Source: Gammaproteobacteria bacterium
Lineage (GTDB): Bacteria; Pseudomonadota; Gammaproteobacteria; Steroidobacterales; Steroidobacteraceae
Assembly (NCBI GenBank): GCA_019247195.1
Contig: JAFAPI010000093.1
Span: 1-41,661 of the forward strand
DNA: 41,661 nt
Direction of reading: 5' to 3'
The notes beneath the pieces are model-generated. The model saw only the letters and a list, made by a program, of their open reading frames with translations. It was not told where the DNA came from and searched no databases. Shown here one piece after another: positions 21,827-27,453 of the stretch. Numbering within the stretch: position 1 is the stretch's first letter; the number at the start of each line of letters is the position of its first letter. A program made the translations under genes and the position numbers.

Positions 21827-24307
21827 CTAGCGGCGCCGCGTGCGGTGCAGGGCGAGTGAGCCGAGCGCGAGCAGCGCGGCCCAGTCGAGGGCGCCGCCCC
21901 CGCCTCCGCCGGAGCTGGGGGGCGCGTTCACGGTCAGCACCGTCGTCGCCTGCGTGGAGCCGTTGGCGTTGGTGCAGGTGAGCGTGTAACTGACGCTGCC
22001 GGCCGCGGCCGGCTGTACCGCCATCGAGCCGCTCAGGTTCTGGTTGCCGCTCCAGGCGCCCGAGGCGGTGCACGTGGTCGCGTTGCTGGTGCTCCAGGTG
22101 AGCGTGCTCGACTGGCCGACGGTGATGGTGGTGGGGCTGACCGAGAGGGTGACGGTCGGTACCGGCGGCAGCGCCGCGAGCGCCGCGTCCGCCTTGATGA
22201 AGCCATAGCCGCCGGTGTAGTTGGTGGCCGAGGCCGAGTTGGTGACGGGCGTCGCGGTGTTGCGCAGGGACTGGTACAGCGTCAGCGGCGCGAGCCCCGG
22301 CGAGCGCTGCAGGAAGAGCGCGGCGGCCCCGGCCACGTGCGGCGTGGCCGCCGACGTGCCGAAGAAGTTCGGGAAGCGGGCGACGTTGGCACAGTTGCCG
22401 CTGCCCCCGGCGCCGATGAGCTGGCCGAGGAACGTGTCGTTGCCTCCGTCCGGTCCGACGATGTCCGGTTTCTGCCGCACGATGGGGGAGGCGAGCCGCG
22501 CCCCGTTCTTGTCAAAGAGGACCGGATCACCCCCGGTCGCCGAGTACGGGTCGAGCTGCGCCGGGCTCACGCCGCAGGCCGGCGTGCGATCGTAGAACGC
22601 CGCGCCCACGGCCATCGCGCCGGCCGCGCCGGGGTGGCCGCGCAGCGTGCCCCCCTGGGTGGCGAACGCGGTGATCGTGGCGCCGGCGCCGTTGTCATCC
22701 ACCGCCAGCTTCAGGCGTCCCGGTGCGGTCGTGCCGCCCGTGAGTCCCACCTGCACGGTGATGTTCTGCGCCGCCGTGCAGTTCGAGCCGGTGAGGGGCG
22801 CGGTGCACGCCCCCCCATTGTTGGCGTTGGCCGGGTTGCCGACGACGATGATCTGGTTGGGATCCTTCCCCACCGCGTTCGGACCGGTGCAGACCTGCAC
22901 GTTGTTGCCGAGGTTGGTCACGCTGTTGGTGCTGGCCGGGCTGGCGATGAGCCCTGAGCTCGAGCCCGTCACGCACAGGTCCAGGGTGCTGGTCGCCCCG
23001 CCGCTGCCGGGCGCACCGGTGACATAGGGCTGGTCCCACTGCAGCACGAAGGCGATGAACTCGCCGGGCTGCAGCGCCGGGATGTTGACCGGCAGGCTCG
23101 TGGCGGTGCTCGCGTTGCTCGTGTCGAAGTTCAGCAGCAGCTCCCCGGCGGGGGAGCTCGAGGGCGTCGCAAAGCTCGGTGCGGTATTGTCGTAGGCGTT
23201 GTTGCCGCTGTTGCCGGCCGCGGAGAAGTAGGCGACCCCGGCCCCGTTGACGGTGTCGGCGGCCTGCGCCAGCAGGCCGTCCTGGTAGACGGGCTCGTCG
23301 AAATAGGTGACGTCATCGGCGATCACCTTGGCGCCGGCGGTGGCGAGGGCCTGGATGCCGTTGGCGAAGTCGGCCTCGGACTCGACCGCGGTGTGGAAGC
23401 CGAGTTTCGCGCCCGGCGCCACGTCGTGCACGATCTGCATCATGGCGCGCCCCTCATCGGCATACGGCAGCAGCAGCGGCGCGCCGAAGTCCTGACAGGT
23501 CCCCTGCGCCGAACCCGCACCCGCCTCCTCGAGCACGTTGATGCTGCCCTGCGCGGGCAGGTCGCCGGTGGCAATGTCACCCGCGGCGTCGGTCGTGATG
23601 CCATTGCTCGCGTAGCCCTGCTGCCCGTTCGGCGGCACGGTGCCCGTTTGCCGGTACACGGCGTAGCAGTCGTAGCTGTCGGAGAGGATGCCCACCGTCA
23701 CCCCGGTGCCGTCCAGGGCGTCGGCGTTGCGTACGGTGGCGGTGCCCTGCACGAAGTCGCCCTGCGAGGTCACCGCGCCGGTATAGGTGCGTGACAGCGC
23801 CGCGCGCATCGCGTGCAGTTCGCCGAGGCCGGTCGCGGCGCGGATCGAGGTGAGTGGCAGGAAGCCGCCGACGTCGTTGCGGTAGACCGCGGCGTGGCGC
23901 AGTCCGAGCGCCTCGAGCGCGCGCCTGAGCTGCTGCGCATCCCCGAGCGTCACCGCATCGACGGCCACGAACGCCGTCCCGGTGCGCGGATCGATACGGA
24001 AGCGCGCCGCGGGGTTCAGCGCCTGCACCTCGTGCGGGGCGAGACCCGGCTGCAGGCGTACGGCGGCGCGCTCGAGCTCGGCGAGCGTCGCGTCGAGCTT
24101 TGCACCGATGCCGCTGCGCAACTGCTCCGCGTCGCGGCCACCAAAGACCATGAGCGGCGTGCGTCCCCCGGCAGGTGCCGCCGCCTCGCCGACGATGGCG
24201 CGTCCGAGCCGCCCCGGCGCCATCAGCGGGGTGGACGCCACGGTGCTCAGCACCACGGCGAGCGCAAGCCCGCTCGCCGCGTAGCGGCTGAAGTTCATCC
24301 CTCGCAT
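21827..24307 (-). CDS. Secreted S8/S53-like serine peptidase with Ig-like domain and GlyGly-CTERM-type tail
   Basis: This 826-residue protein starts at the ATG at 24307 (GGGGG about seven bases upstream). A signal segment (10-30) and propeptide (to about 195) precede the peptidase core. Core landmarks are GVTVGILSDSYD (D210), DEGRAMMQIVHDVAPGAKL (E285), VIADDVTYFDEP (D331/D332), SAAGNSGNN (N366) and GTSAATPHVAG (S652). Where subtilisins have H-G-T-H, this protein has D-E-G, so the acid-base residue is probably Glu, as in sedolisin-like S53 enzymes. An Ig-like domain (about 716-795) is followed by SGGGGGG, a hydrophobic helix and HRTRRR: the tripartite GlyGly-CTERM signal processed by rhombosortase for surface release. 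Confidence 0.88.
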   Translation of the reverse strand: MRGMNFSRYAASGLALAVVLSTVASTPLMAPGRLGRAIVGEAAAPAGGRTPLMVFGGRDAEQLRSGIGAKLDATLAELERAAVRLQPGLAPHEVQALNPAARFRIDPRTGTAFVAVDAVTLGDAQQLRRALEALGLRHAAVYRNDVGGFLPLTSIRAATGLGELHAMRAALSRTYTGAVTSQGDFVQGTATVRNADALDGTGVTVGILSDSYDCYAVYRQTGTVPPNGQQGYASNGITTDAAGDIATGDLPAQGSINVLEEAGAGSAQGTCQDFGAPLLLPYADEGRAMMQIVHDVAPGAKLGFHTAVESEADFANGIQALATAGAKVIADDVTYFDEPVYQDGLLAQAADTVNGAGVAYFSAAGNSGNNAYDNTAPSFATPSSSPAGELLLNFDTSNASTATSLPVNIPALQPGEFIAFVLQWDQPYVTGAPGSGGATSTLDLCVTGSSSGLIASPASTNSVTNLGNNVQVCTGPNAVGKDPNQIIVVGNPANANNGGACTAPLTGSNCTAAQNITVQVGLTGGTTAPGRLKLAVDDNGAGATITAFATQGGTLRGHPGAAGAMAVGAAFYDRTPACGVSPAQLDPYSATGGDPVLFDKNGARLASPIVRQKPDIVGPDGGNDTFLGQLIGAGGSGNCANVARFPNFFGTSAATPHVAGAAALFLQRSPGLAPLTLYQSLRNTATPVTNSASATNYTGGYGFIKADAALAALPPVPTVTLSVSPTTITVGQSSTLTWSTSNATTCTASGAWSGNQNLSGSMAVQPAAAGSVSYTLTCTNANGSTQATTVLTVNAPPSSGGGGGGALDWAALLALGSLALHRTRRR

Positions 24308-24481
24308 GGAAACCCCCGTTAAGCGCATCACCCCGCGGTGCGCGCCGTCTGATCCCTTGACGCCGTCGTGTGCGGCCACACCTGCGCGCGGCCTGCGCGA
24401 TCCCCGAGGCTAGTGTAGCGCGGGCCGCCCATCCGCCGCTCGGACGGTAAGTTATTGTCAAGCCGGGAATTACCCGCGCGC

Positions 24482-24733
24482 TCAGGTCCGCGCGGCGGTC
24501 GCTGCCCGCTGCCGCAGCGCGTAGAGGCCGATGCCGATCCAGATCACGTTCATGGCGGCCGACGGAAAGGCGCCGTTGAAGCCGCTGTTCACGACGAACC
24601 CGGCGGCCCCGAGGATGTTCATCAGGTGATAGGTCATCGTCTCGGCCTTAAGTCGCCCGGCCGAGAGCAGCGCGTAAGCGCCGAGGATCAGCGCAGCGCC
24701 CGCCCAGCCGATCACCTCCACCGCGATTTTCAT
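24482..24733 (-). CDS. Small CBU_0592-type membrane protein
   Basis: This 83-residue protein starts at the ATG at 24733, fixed by a strong AAGGAG five bases upstream. It has three hydrophobic segments (about 4-24, 36-52, 58-75), and the motif YHLMNILGAAGFVVNS (35-50) is characteristic of the CBU_0592 family of small integral membrane proteins. No function is established. It lies 48 bp downstream of the anti-sigma stop on the same strand, so it may belong to the sigma operon. Confidence 0.8.
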   Translation of the reverse strand: MKIAVEVIGWAGAALILGAYALLSAGRLKAETMTYHLMNILGAAGFVVNSGFNGAFPSAAMNVIWIGIGLYALRQRAATAART

Positions 24734-24789
24734 GGGACTCCTTCGCGGCGCACACCCGCGCCGGCGCCGGACTATACCGCCGGTGGCCC

Positions 24790-25554
24790 TTAGCGCGGAG
24801 CGGCCTCGAGGTTCGCGCGCTGCTCGAGCAGCTGGGCGAGTCGCTGCAGTTCCGGCCATTCCGCATCCCCGACGAGGCAGGAGCGCACGTCGCCGACCTG
24901 CCAGCTCAGCAGGTGATAGCCGCGCACGGTCCGGGCCGGCGGGACGGGCCCGGCCGCAGGCCAGCTGAAGACCTCAAGCAGGTGCGCACCATGTCGATAG
25001 ACCAGGACCGCCACACGCGCACCGCCGACCCGCTGCACGCGTCCCCCGACCAACCCAAAGCCGTCGGCGGCAAAATCGGCCACCACCGGCGCCACGTCGG
25101 AGCGGCCGGCGAACCACGGCTTGAGGGTGTGATGGTCGCTCGAGGGCATCTCGATCAGCGCCCCGCGGCTCAAGGCGGTGAGGTGGGCCGTCGCGAGCTC
25201 CCCGAGCACATCGGTGCGCAGCAGCGGCGTCGCTACGAAGACGAGCGCCGCGGCGCATGCCCCCAGCAGCGCCCCGCCGAGCGAGCCGAGCCAGAACTCC
25301 CGCCGCCGCCCGCGCCGCGCGGCCCGTGCGGCCTCTTCGGCGCCGAGGGCGCTCCTCACCCGCGTGGCGAGTGCGCGCGAGGCGCTGAGCGACTCGCTCA
25401 CGCCGCGCAGCCGCGCCCGCTGCGCGCTCAGGCTGGAGAGGTGCGCGCGGCAGCTGGCGCACTCCTCGAGATGCGCAGCGACTGTGGCCGCCTCGCGCGC
25501 CGGCAGCTCGGCGTCGAAGTAGGCGCTCAGCTGCGGCGCGTCAGCGCATGCCAT
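24790..25554 (-). CDS. Anti-sigma factor with zinc-finger (ZAS-like) domain and one membrane segment
   Basis: Membrane-bound inhibitor of the preceding ECF sigma factor, 254 residues. The N-terminal domain has the H-x3-C-x2-C zinc motif HLEECASC (H28, C32, C35), the hallmark of zinc-binding anti-sigma domains. A positively charged linker leads to a single transmembrane helix (about 87-112), then a periplasmic sensor domain of about 140 residues including ARVAVLVYRHGAHLLEVFSW. Its start overlaps the sigma gene end by 14 bp, giving translational coupling and balanced amounts. The signal sensed by the outer domain is unknown; histidines in it could bind metal (inference). Confidence 0.93.
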   Translation of the reverse strand: MACADAPQLSAYFDAELPAREAATVAAHLEECASCRAHLSSLSAQRARLRGVSESLSASRALATRVRSALGAEEAARAARRGRRREFWLGSLGGALLGACAAALVFVATPLLRTDVLGELATAHLTALSRGALIEMPSSDHHTLKPWFAGRSDVAPVVADFAADGFGLVGGRVQRVGGARVAVLVYRHGAHLLEVFSWPAAGPVPPARTVRGYHLLSWQVGDVRSCLVGDAEWPELQRLAQLLEQRANLEAAPR

Positions 25555-26077
25555 GATCGAGCTCCTGGGTCTCGGCCTGCCAGTGCTCCCGCAGCGATTC
25601 GCGGGCGCGCGACAGGCGCGACATGACGGTACCGACCGGCACCCCGGTGAGGGTGGCGATCTCGCGATAGCTCAGCTCGGCCACTTCGCGCAGCGCGAGA
25701 GTCTCGCGATGCTCCGCTGAGAGCCCGCTGAGCAGGCGCTGCAGCTCCAGCTCACTCTGCGACTGAATCGCCGCGAGCTGCGGATCGGGGGCGCCGGCGC
25801 CCTGCGCGTCGGCCAGCGCCTGCCGGTCGGCCTCGCGTCGCTGCCGCTGTCGAGCGGCGTCCACGTGACAATTGCGCACGATGGTGAGCAGCCAGGGCTT
25901 CACCGCCGGGGCCCGCAGCGCCGCGAAGCCGCGGAAGGCGCGCAGCATCGCCTCCTGCACGATGTCCTCGGCGTCGGCGCGGGCATTGCCCAGCCAGCGG
26001 GCGAAGCGATACGCATCGTCCAGGTGCGGCAGCACCTGGGCGGCGAAGCGCTCACGTTGTCCGCTCGCTGCGACCAT
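25541..26077 (-). CDS. ECF-subfamily RNA polymerase sigma factor
   Basis: Group 4 sigma-70 factor of 178 residues from the ATG at 26077; upstream in-frame sequence contains the promoter and is not part of the protein. Region 2 reads DAYRFARWLGNARADAEDIVQEAMLRAF with the core-binding DAEDIVQE. Region 4 reads LSAEHRETLALREVAELSYREIATLTGVPVGTVMSRLSRARE, a classic sigma-70 helix-turn-helix. It directs transcription from its own promoter and, by symmetry of the promoter pair, from the divergent metallophosphoesterase-cupredoxin operon. Activity should be controlled by the overlapping anti-sigma gene. Confidence 0.95.
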   Translation of the reverse strand: MVAASGQRERFAAQVLPHLDDAYRFARWLGNARADAEDIVQEAMLRAFRGFAALRAPAVKPWLLTIVRNCHVDAARQRQRREADRQALADAQGAGAPDPQLAAIQSQSELELQRLLSGLSAEHRETLALREVAELSYREIATLTGVPVGTVMSRLSRARESLREHWQAETQELDHGMR

Positions 26078-26106
26078 CGCCCATCCTTTTGCGCGCTTGC
26101 GGGAAC

Positions 26107-26133
26107 AGACCGGAGTCGGGCCGATTTTATTCC
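26107..26133 (-). promoter_or_regulatory. ECF-type promoter for the sigma / anti-sigma operon
   Basis: Reading the minus strand: -35 GGAATA (26133-26128), 17-bp spacer, -10 GTCT (26110-26107). The predicted start of transcription near 26101 is about 25 bases before the sigma ATG. The GGAAT/GTCT pair matches the general ECF promoter form. It is the mirror image of the promoter at 26147-26173. Confidence 0.72.
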
Positions 26134-26146
26134 GTGCCGCCCGGCC

Positions 26147-26173
26147 GGAATAAAAAGCATGCCGCGGGCGTCT
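26147..26173 (+). promoter_or_regulatory. ECF-type promoter for the metallophosphoesterase-cupredoxin operon
   Basis: -35 GGAATA (26147-26152), 17-bp spacer, -10 GTCT (26170-26173). The -35 element lies in the right arm of a perfect 10-bp inverted repeat whose left arm (26125-26134) carries the -35 of the divergent sigma promoter. The predicted transcript begins about 30 bases before the ATG at 26210. Confidence 0.72.
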
Positions 26174-26209
26174 CCTGCGCCATATCGACACCTGGCACGG
26201 AGAAACCCC

Positions 26210-27130
26210 ATGTCCGACGTTCCCCTGACCCGTCGCGATGCCCTGCGCTGCCTGGCGTATGGCAGCGCCGGCACCCTCTTTACCTTAAGCGGCGGCGTTC
26301 TGGCGCCCGTCGAGCTCGCCGCGGCGCACGCGGTGGCGCCCGCGCGGCCCCTCTTTCTGCAGATCAGCGATACCCACATCGGCTTCAACAAGGAGGCGAA
26401 CCCGGACGTGGCGGGCACGCTGCGCCGCACGATCGCCCTCGCCAACGCGCTGCCCCAGGCCCCGGCCCTGACCCTGCACACCGGGGACATCACCCATCTG
26501 TCGCGCGCCGGCGAGTTCGACCTCGCGCAGCAGTTGCTGCAGGAGCTGCGCGGGGGTGAGCTGCACGTGGTGCCGGGCGAGCACGACGTGATCGAAGCCG
26601 GCGCGACCGAGTACTTCGATCGCTTCGGCGCACCCTCCGCACGGCGCGGTTACTACGCCTTCGATCACGGCGGCGTGCACTTCATCGCGCTGGTCAACGT
26701 GCTGCAGTTCAAGCCGGGCGGGCTCGGCACGCTCGGCGAGGAGCAGCTCGCCTGGGCGCTCGAGGACCTGCGCGGTCGAGCCGCGAGCACCCCGATCGTC
26801 GTCTTCGCGCACATGCCGCTGTGGACGGTCTACGAGCCGTGGGGGTGGGGAACCGGCGATGCGGCCCCGCTGCTCGAGGCACTGCGGCGTTTCGGCTCGG
26901 TGACCGTGCTCAATGGCCACATCCATCAGATCGTGCAGCGCGTGGAGGGGCACATCACCTTCCATACGGCGCGTTCGACGGCCTATCCCCAGCCCGCCCC
27001 CGGCACGGCCGATGCGCCAGGACCGCTCAAGGTGCCCGCGGAGGAGCTGCCCCAACGGCTGGGGCTGACGAGCGCAAGCCTGCAGCGCCGGCCTGCCGCG
27101 GTCCGGCTCGCCGACCGGACGCTGGCATGA
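26210..27130 (+). CDS. Tat-exported calcineurin-like metallophosphoesterase
   Basis: This 306-residue periplasmic phosphoesterase has GGAG nine bases before its ATG. A twin-arginine signal is present (LTRRDALRCLAYGSAGTLFTLSGG, RR at 8-9). Metallophosphoesterase blocks appear in order: D-x-H in ISDTHIG (D54, H56), GD in HTGDITH (D93), GEHD (123-126, where the family usually has GNHD), VFAHMPLW and NGHIH. The Asn-to-Glu change at a metal ligand is notable but the other ligands are intact. It is co-transcribed and translationally coupled (ATGA) with the cupredoxin, and probably driven by the ECF sigma factor opposite. Substrate unknown. Confidence 0.9.
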   Translation: MSDVPLTRRDALRCLAYGSAGTLFTLSGGVLAPVELAAAHAVAPARPLFLQISDTHIGFNKEANPDVAGTLRRTIALANALPQAPALTLHTGDITHLSRAGEFDLAQQLLQELRGGELHVVPGEHDVIEAGATEYFDRFGAPSARRGYYAFDHGGVHFIALVNVLQFKPGGLGTLGEEQLAWALEDLRGRAASTPIVVFAHMPLWTVYEPWGWGTGDAAPLLEALRRFGSVTVLNGHIHQIVQRVEGHITFHTARSTAYPQPAPGTADAPGPLKVPAEELPQRLGLTSASLQRRPAAVRLADRTLA

Positions 27131-27453
27131 GCGCCTGGGGCGGTTTGACGGCAGTCCTGGCGGCTGCCCTGCTCAGCGCCTCTCCGGCGGCGCTGCCGGC
27201 CGACGGTGGCGCGCAGGTGGAGATCAAGCACTTCATGTTCACGCCGGAGCGCATCACGATTCACCCCGGCACGACGCTGCGCTGGGTCAACCGCGACGAG
27301 GAGCCGCACACGATCGTGAGCATGGACGGGATATTCCGCTCCCAGGCGGTGGATGGGGGCGAGACGTTTACGTTCCGCTTCGACACGCCCGGCACCTACC
27401 GCTACGTGTGCACGGTGCACCCGCAGATGACGGGCACGGTGGTCGTGGAATGA
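27127..27453 (+). CDS. Periplasmic cupredoxin (blue-copper-like protein)
   Basis: This 108-residue protein has a signal peptide (about 1-25) and one plastocyanin-like domain. The type 1 copper ligands are all visible: H61 in EEPHTIVS, and C95, H98 and M101 in YVCTVHPQM. It should bind copper and carry electrons or buffer copper in the periplasm. The start overlaps the metallophosphoesterase stop (ATGA). The stop and that of the convergent GH1-RmlD gene together form the palindrome TGATCA. Confidence 0.93.
   Translation: MSAWGGLTAVLAAALLSASPAALPADGGAQVEIKHFMFTPERITIHPGTTLRWVNRDEEPHTIVSMDGIFRSQAVDGGETFTFRFDTPGTYRYVCTVHPQMTGTVVVE

Follow-up and report, generated by a model that had tools for sequence, protein, structure and literature searches.

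Predicted ECF sigma factor circuit with back-to-back GGAATA-N17-GTCT promoters facing a sigma/anti-sigma operon and a metallophosphoesterase/cupredoxin operon in a Steroidobacteraceae bacterium

The described systems closest to the locus reported herein are directed by ECF26 sigma factors, for which a cross-species promoter consensus has been given, consisting of GGAATA as the -35 element and GT as the -10 element (PMC6180224). According to the same source, several ECF26 genes are autoregulated, RpoE3 seemingly being an exception, and the ECF26 sigmas of Sinorhizobium meliloti cross-activate each other's promoters (PMC6180224); RpoE1, RpoE4, and RpoE6 activate an ECF26 promoter and RpoE3 does not (PMC10880074). 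GGAAT/CGTC elements with a spacing variation of one base have been located upstream of sorT, sorA, and rpoE4, and the sigE promoter of Starkeya novella is described as devoid of this consensus (PMC6527743). Considering the seemingly non-autoregulated RpoE3 and the latter promoter, autoregulation is thus not universal in ECF26. RpoE1 and RpoE4 have further been described with mapped starts in a figure legend (PMC3511301), and a different motif is given for EcfF (PMC3420878).

With regard to gene arrangement, RpoE6 of S. meliloti is encoded divergently from the serine protease gene SMa0142, a main target, and the authors state that the divergent ECF26-target arrangement is widely conserved among other ECF26 sigmas (PMC6180224). 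The EcfG/NepR/PhyR loci of alphaproteobacteria likewise comprise two divergent units on promoters of the locally encoded response, but they belong to another sigma group with other signalling, and the canonical EcfG promoter differs (PMC8103513).

Here we describe a 41,661-nucleotide stretch (contig JAFAPI010000093.1 of assembly GCA_019247195.1; hereafter the window), which carries the following features.

24793..25554, minus strand: gene for an anti-sigma factor, overlapping the end of the sigma gene; zf-HC2 domain with HxxxCxxC at residues 28-35
25544..26077, minus strand: gene for an ECF sigma factor of 178 aa, with the ATG at 26077 and AAGGA upstream; Sigma70_r2 and Sigma70_r4_2
26107..26133, minus strand: predicted ECF promoter of the sigma/anti-sigma operon; -35 GGAATA at 26133-26128, N17, -10 GTCT at 26110-26107
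26125..26155: perfect inverted repeat of 10 bp with an 11-bp spacer, formed by both -35 regions and their A-tracts
26147..26173, plus strand: predicted ECF promoter of the metallophosphoesterase/cupredoxin operon; -35 GGAATA at 26147-26152, N17, -10 GTCT at 26170-26173
26210..27130, plus strand: gene for a calcineurin-like metallophosphoesterase with an N-terminal RR signal (LTRRDALRCLAYG...)
27127..27453, plus strand: gene for a cupredoxin (plastocyanin/amicyanin-like), the start codon of which overlaps the metallophosphoesterase stop

The sigma factor carries Sigma70_r2 at residues 18-81 and Sigma70_r4_2 at residues 110-162 of 178, scored 84.9 bits against TIGR02937 (sigma70-ECF; cut-off 42.9), and, having sigma regions 2 and 4 only, falls within the ECF class (group 4). 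A longer mechanical ORF from 26191 would run across the promoter, but a candidate start codon lies near the position of 26077 in most of ten relatives. In the predicted leaders, AAGGA and GGAG stand ahead of the ATG codons of the sigma and metallophosphoesterase genes, respectively. The zf-HC2 match of the anti-sigma factor (E 4e-08; 33.7 bits, cut-off 22.2) is followed by one hydrophobic segment at about residues 89-113 and a C-terminal part that gave no Pfam match; having a putative zinc-binding domain and being encoded beside the sigma gene, the protein would count as a class I anti-sigma factor. These two were the only regulators seen to be encoded alongside. The metallophosphoesterase, in view of its sequence, is likely exported by Tat. 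Downstream of the anti-sigma gene, the minus strand encodes a large protein that we take to be a secreted subtilisin-type protease (21827-24379) and a CBU_0592-family membrane protein (24485-24859). Relatives of both occur in the same order in the same-genus genome G001 (L032), and the remaining nine relative regions inspected gave no match to either.

As for the intergenic region, GGAATAAAATCGGCCCGACTCCGGTCT at 26107-26133(-) and GGAATAAAAAGCATGCCGCGGGCGTCT at 26147-26173(+) were both exact matches to GGAATA-N17-GTCT, and no other GGAATA-N15..19-GTCT was found in the window, dinucleotide shuffles of which gave a mean of 0.02 such sites and two or more sites in 0 of 100. These results bore out the earlier note, made from the sequence of the window, in which the motif had been reported once on each strand and nowhere else, and the gene layout on each strand agreed with its proposal that one copy faces the sigma/anti-sigma genes and the other the metallophosphoesterase/cupredoxin genes. 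The 67 bp given there as the intergenic segment, however, corresponds to the distance from the outer edge of one GTCT element to that of the other; the intergenic region itself measures 132 bp (26078-26209). The perfect 10-bp inverted repeat was also found as described, its arms TTTTATTCCG (26125-26134) and CGGAATAAAA (26146-26155) being perfect reverse complements, but it stops at 10 bp, with no match between the bases directly outside the arms, and the symmetry is limited to the -35 regions with their A-tracts. The gap between the two GGAATA hexamers is 13 bp (26134-26146). A search of 25900-26350 revealed no sigma-70-like promoter, and a terminator reading was rejected, as no terminator-like site was present in the same interval and the flanking genes diverge.

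A scan of the whole assembly (3.18 Mb in 257 contigs, 92% complete), which had been suggested beforehand, yielded one exact GGAATA-N17-GTCT beyond the promoter pair, at C27:10880-10906. Since this site lies within a coding frame, presumably that of an NADPH-dependent FMN reductase, it was set aside, which leaves two exact non-coding sites, both beside the sigma gene. When up to two mismatches to GGAATAAA-N15-GTCT were allowed, the assembly gave 19 matches (two perfect, one with one mismatch, which is the coding site just named, and 16 with two mismatches) versus 14 for a reversed control pattern. With no clear excess beyond the two perfect sites, a larger regulon in this genome was rejected, although further targets may be missing owing to the incompleteness and fragmentation of the assembly.

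To extend the comparison, loci were collected with an alignment of eight metallophosphoesterases as the query. At least 594 stretches matched, 482 were confirmed, and the best 80, which lean to close relatives and include many Paraburkholderia, were kept as named loci; after 14 loci were added and duplicate upstream regions and genes truncated at contig ends were removed, the scored set comprised the upstream regions of 83 metallophosphoesterase and 38 sigma genes, all distinct. GGAATA-N17-GTCT was present at two mismatches or fewer in 83 of 83 metallophosphoesterase regions (zero, one, and two mismatches in 36, 42, and 5) and in 36 of 38 sigma regions (23, 10, and 3, with three mismatches in the other 2). 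The two sigma genes having no such site directly upstream (L046 and L051, best three mismatches) follow the metallophosphoesterase gene on the same strand at a distance of about 0.5-0.7 kb, and the output promoter may serve them as well; the metallophosphoesterase of these two loci retains GGAATA-N17-GTAA. Eight other spacers yielded no exact site and mostly two to four mismatches. One-mismatch matches before the metallophosphoesterase amounted to 1, 1, 14, and 1 of 83 at N15, N19, N20, and N21, and those before sigma to 3 of 38 at N20 and 1 of 38 at N21; given the numbers at N20, single weak matches mean little. Among shuffles of single bases, fewer than 1% contained a one-mismatch site and none a perfect one. 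The upstream regions of the anti-sigma genes (38) held no exact site, with one mismatch in 1 and two in 6, and those of the cupredoxin genes (74) held none below two mismatches, with two in 7.

Column counts were made on the 119 sites with two mismatches or fewer, the two three-mismatch sigma rows being dropped. GGAATA was kept in 36 of 36 sigma and 82 of 83 metallophosphoesterase sites (118/119), the G of GT in 35 of 36 and 83 of 83 (118/119), and the T in 36 of 36 and 83 of 83 (119/119). The base after GT was C in 31 of 36 sigma and 60 of 83 metallophosphoesterase sites, the two positions after GGAATA were mostly A, and the remaining spacer was far less conserved, though with some bias. Judged from the alignment, this is the shape of a bipartite promoter, which was conserved in records titled gamma- and alphaproteobacteria, Paraburkholderia, Cupriavidus, and others. 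Promoter elements are short, and a chance resemblance in a short intergenic region might thus be invoked; the shuffles, the rarity of the motif in the genome, and its conservation across relatives, however, render such a coincidence practically negligible. Besides these sites, a 27-mer close to GGAATATCCGGCGACGAAGCGGCGTCT recurs in L069, L070, L077, L086, L087, L103, L111, L114, and L118, in which, unlike in the promoters studied, the spacer is conserved too. Some copies precede short secreted proteins of one type, with KTRAEV or LTRAEV followed by QELQELE/HELEELE, which we assume to be DUF4148 proteins.

Within the genus, close relatives of the sigma factor were detected in 10 others of 60 genomes (own included), all of the same genus, at 47-56% identity (E below 1e-32), and all ten carried the motif before the sigma gene with at most one mismatch. 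The metallophosphoesterase gene is divergent from sigma in G001 and G031, in tandem behind the anti-sigma gene in G033, G030, G020, G018, and G027, on another contig than sigma in G002 (G002:C12) and G032 (G032:C350), and present in two genomes having no close sigma, G010 (G010:C8) and G005. In all 11 of these genomes it is preceded by a motif of its own with at most one mismatch; G015, G024, and G026 stand outside this count, as their metallophosphoesterase match starts part-way through the protein. The two sites of G031, AGAATA-N17-GTCT and GGAATA-N17-ATCT, deviate by one mismatch each and are separated by 25 bp. In terms of sequence, a copy of the motif accompanies each gene irrespective of a divergent, tandem, or unlinked arrangement. 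What the sequence and its comparison show directly is the presence of both motifs, the exactness of their spacing, and the retention of a copy by each gene in any gene order.

Among the matches listed, same-genus sites of the form GGAATAAA-N15-GTCT numbered 22; 14 of them adjoined a close sigma or metallophosphoesterase gene, and the other 8 lay elsewhere. In the large same-genus genome G010, copies of the motif were located ahead of genes for a di-haem cytochrome c peroxidase-like protein (CCP_MauG), a cytochrome c, and another ECF sigma factor (L203, G010:C16; L204, G010:C31; L205, G010:C41). These sites would fit an envelope or redox theme. The other extra sites, in G010, G012, G031, G005, and G024, precede unrelated, short, or cut frames. 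A separate 27-mer, GGAATAGGGGGGTCTTGATCCGCGTCT, is identical in 12 same-genus genomes among the matches listed (e.g., G003:C33:49939-49965), none of which is among the ten with a close sigma; as it is conserved in full, it is probably part of a conserved gene.

The question of which sigma factor reads the two sites bears on these counts. A different or additional sigma factor of this genome might read one or both promoters, since the sigma query gave five further matches in the own genome and cross-activation of promoters is described for the ECF26 sigmas of S. meliloti. Nevertheless, both exact non-coding sites of the assembly adjoin this sigma gene, and the share of the listed same-genus sites located at a close sigma or metallophosphoesterase gene (14/22) points in the same direction, the remaining listed sites including one that precedes another ECF gene. 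We therefore regard the involvement of another sigma as improbable, and infer that the neighbouring sigma factor reads both promoters.

In order to assess the mirror arrangement itself, 217 genomes of the family (own included) were searched for TATTCC-N1..31-GGAATA-N17-GTC, a pattern that bounds the observable gaps at 31 bp. Matches were obtained in 22 genomes, 10 of which matched on both strands at one place and thus hold a mirror pair. In 8 of these 10 the pair is flanked by sigma and metallophosphoesterase genes, with gaps of 13 bp in the own genome, 29 in G001, 29 in G509, 27 in G511 (read from the identical region L066), 24 in G512, 25 in G517, 25 in G519, and 2 in G568. The same gene pair occurs with a 2-bp gap in G304, which belongs to another family of the class, and with an 84-bp gap and two mismatches per site in L083. 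Conservation of both elements in relatives with the same gene order had been set in advance as a test, and ten other divergent sigma/metallophosphoesterase pairs indeed bear a site on each side, nine of them at gaps of 2-29 bp and one at 84, with seven of the ten at 24-29 bp. The 2-bp palindromes read TTTATTCC-CG-GGAATAAA in G304 and TATTCC-CG-GGAATA in G568. In G443 (region as in L116), a metallophosphoesterase gene faces a 122-aa ORF across a mirror pair. G005:C253 (L210 3226-3281; also L058) has a metallophosphoesterase gene facing a PAP2-superfamily gene with two motif copies 2 bp apart, and no close relative of the window's sigma was found in that genome.

The class-wide pattern TTTATTCC-N1..31-GGAATAAA matched in 32 of 369 genomes, but of the 30 loci retrieved, both GT elements were present at N17 only in L150, L158, L166, and L168, the own locus, so most of these matches probably arose by chance. 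When 91 metallophosphoesterases were placed in a quick tree, the own row paired with G001 (SH-aLRT 95) despite the different gaps (13 vs 29), and divergent versus other linked arrangements required at least five changes; these placements are unsure owing to long branches (own row, L032, L040, L091, L130, L158, L191, and L088) and the odd composition of the own row. A dependence of the gaps on helical phase was not retained, as 2, 13, and 24 would agree with it but 25, 27, and 29 would not, and the 31-bp limit of the family search truncates the upper end of the distribution.

A perfect 10-bp inverted repeat between divergent genes occupies the classical place of an operator, and the repeat could in principle be bound by a dimeric regulator, the GTCT elements being incidental. 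However, tandem and unlinked genes each keep a single copy with a GT element 17 bases on, the half-sites are 13 bp apart here, 29 in G001, and 2-29 over nine pairs, which one dimer would hardly tolerate, and no regulator other than the sigma and anti-sigma was seen in the vicinity. The operator reading was rejected on the basis of the variable gap and the single copies in tandem genomes, and we consider it very improbable. The inference in the earlier note that the symmetry suggests one sigma driving both operons is supported with a qualification: the two promoters are conserved, whereas the mirror symmetry, with its gap of 13 bp here, 2-29 in nine other divergent pairs, and 84 in the tenth, is a consequence of gene order.

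The proximity of the promoters raised another issue, namely whether two polymerases exclude each other, which would make the region a one-at-a-time choice between feedback and output. With 13 bp between the hexamers, the predicted starts would be about 80 bp apart, which, judging from footprint sizes, should be close to the room taken by two polymerases; at the 2-bp gaps of three separate loci (G568, G304, and G005), two domain-4 contacts could hardly fit. As tandem relatives have no shared region and most divergent gaps are 24-29 bp, with one of 84, competition cannot be what the arrangement is conserved for, and an exclusive choice at this locus is unlikely on balance. Competition at 13 bp is nonetheless plausible, and would be likelier in the relatives with a 2-bp gap. 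The more general idea that abutting mirror ECF promoters form a mutually exclusive pair tuned by the gap (strict at 2, partial at 13, and independent at 24-29) is doubtful. If it were true, one holoenzyme at a time would choose either sigma/anti-sigma or output, so that feedback would be capped in proportion to output, and the gap-2 palindromes in G304 and G568 and the G005 pair with its unrelated partner gene would offer natural test cases.

Taken together, these data make it highly likely that the locus functions as a positively autoregulated ECF switch, which is paired with a zf-HC2 anti-sigma factor and drives its own operon and one output operon. In the proposed mechanism, the membrane-anchored zinc-finger anti-sigma factor (24793-25554) would release the sigma factor (25544-26077), and polymerase with the freed sigma would start at the two back-to-back GGAATA-N17-GTCT promoters. 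The minus-strand promoter (predicted start near 26100) would raise sigma and anti-sigma together as feedback, and the plus-strand promoter (predicted start near 26180) would produce the output, the putatively exported metallophosphoesterase and the cupredoxin.

This picture resembles ECF26 in promoter form: both window promoters and the sites of the relatives match GGAATA/GT. S. meliloti RpoE1/RpoE4 and S. novella SigE use the same form (GGAATA/GT or GGAAT/CGTC). As in the window, the sigma gene of these systems is followed by that of an anti-sigma factor, theirs having an N-terminal anti-sigma domain, one membrane segment, and a periplasmic part; some members are autoregulated, and a target operon contains azu2. 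The order of parts in the window's anti-sigma factor deduced from Pfam and hydropathy, an N-terminal zf-HC2, one hydrophobic segment, and a C-terminal part, would fit that of ECF26 anti-sigmas. The sigma factor itself scored 158.5 bits against its best NCBIfam equivalog, NF009185 (PRK12533), below the cut-off of 248, and a plasmid search with it returned 14 records at 37-43% identity, with no known reference among them. The same accounts give the sorT-sorU-azu2, rpoE4, and rpoE1 operons as targets of RpoE1/RpoE4, and we take azu2 to be a cupredoxin gene. In contrast, the output of the window is a metallophosphoesterase with a cupredoxin, no sulfite-oxidising enzyme was found among the four neighbouring genes scanned, the two promoters stand back to back within 67 bp, and the spacing, reported to vary by one base in the S. 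meliloti and S. novella systems, is strictly N17 in the scored relatives. RpoE6/SMa0142, in which an ECF26 gene is divergent from a gene it activates, has a similar layout, but its target is other than metallophosphoesterase/cupredoxin. The circuit is a well-supported case of a known kind and not a new kind of system. An envelope or redox stress would be the most probable kind of signal, judging from the described ECF26 systems and from certain redox-type targets of one relative.

In the open-access literature, with subscription journals mostly outside the search, no paper pairing ECF or sigma terms with metallophosphoesterase or cupredoxin names was found, and among open-access abstracts on divergent, overlapping, or back-to-back ECF promoters or autoregulation, none was recognisably about such a pair. 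The locus provides a sequence-level regulon for an ECF sigma factor whose output is a predicted exported metallophosphoesterase and a cupredoxin. As the promoter is conserved across many genomes, one experiment would help annotate many of them, and with the natural gap variants (2, 13, and 24-29 bp), the interference of two identical divergent promoters with each other could be measured directly. The value of the finding accordingly lies in a clean, widely conserved regulon accompanied by a natural series of promoter gaps.
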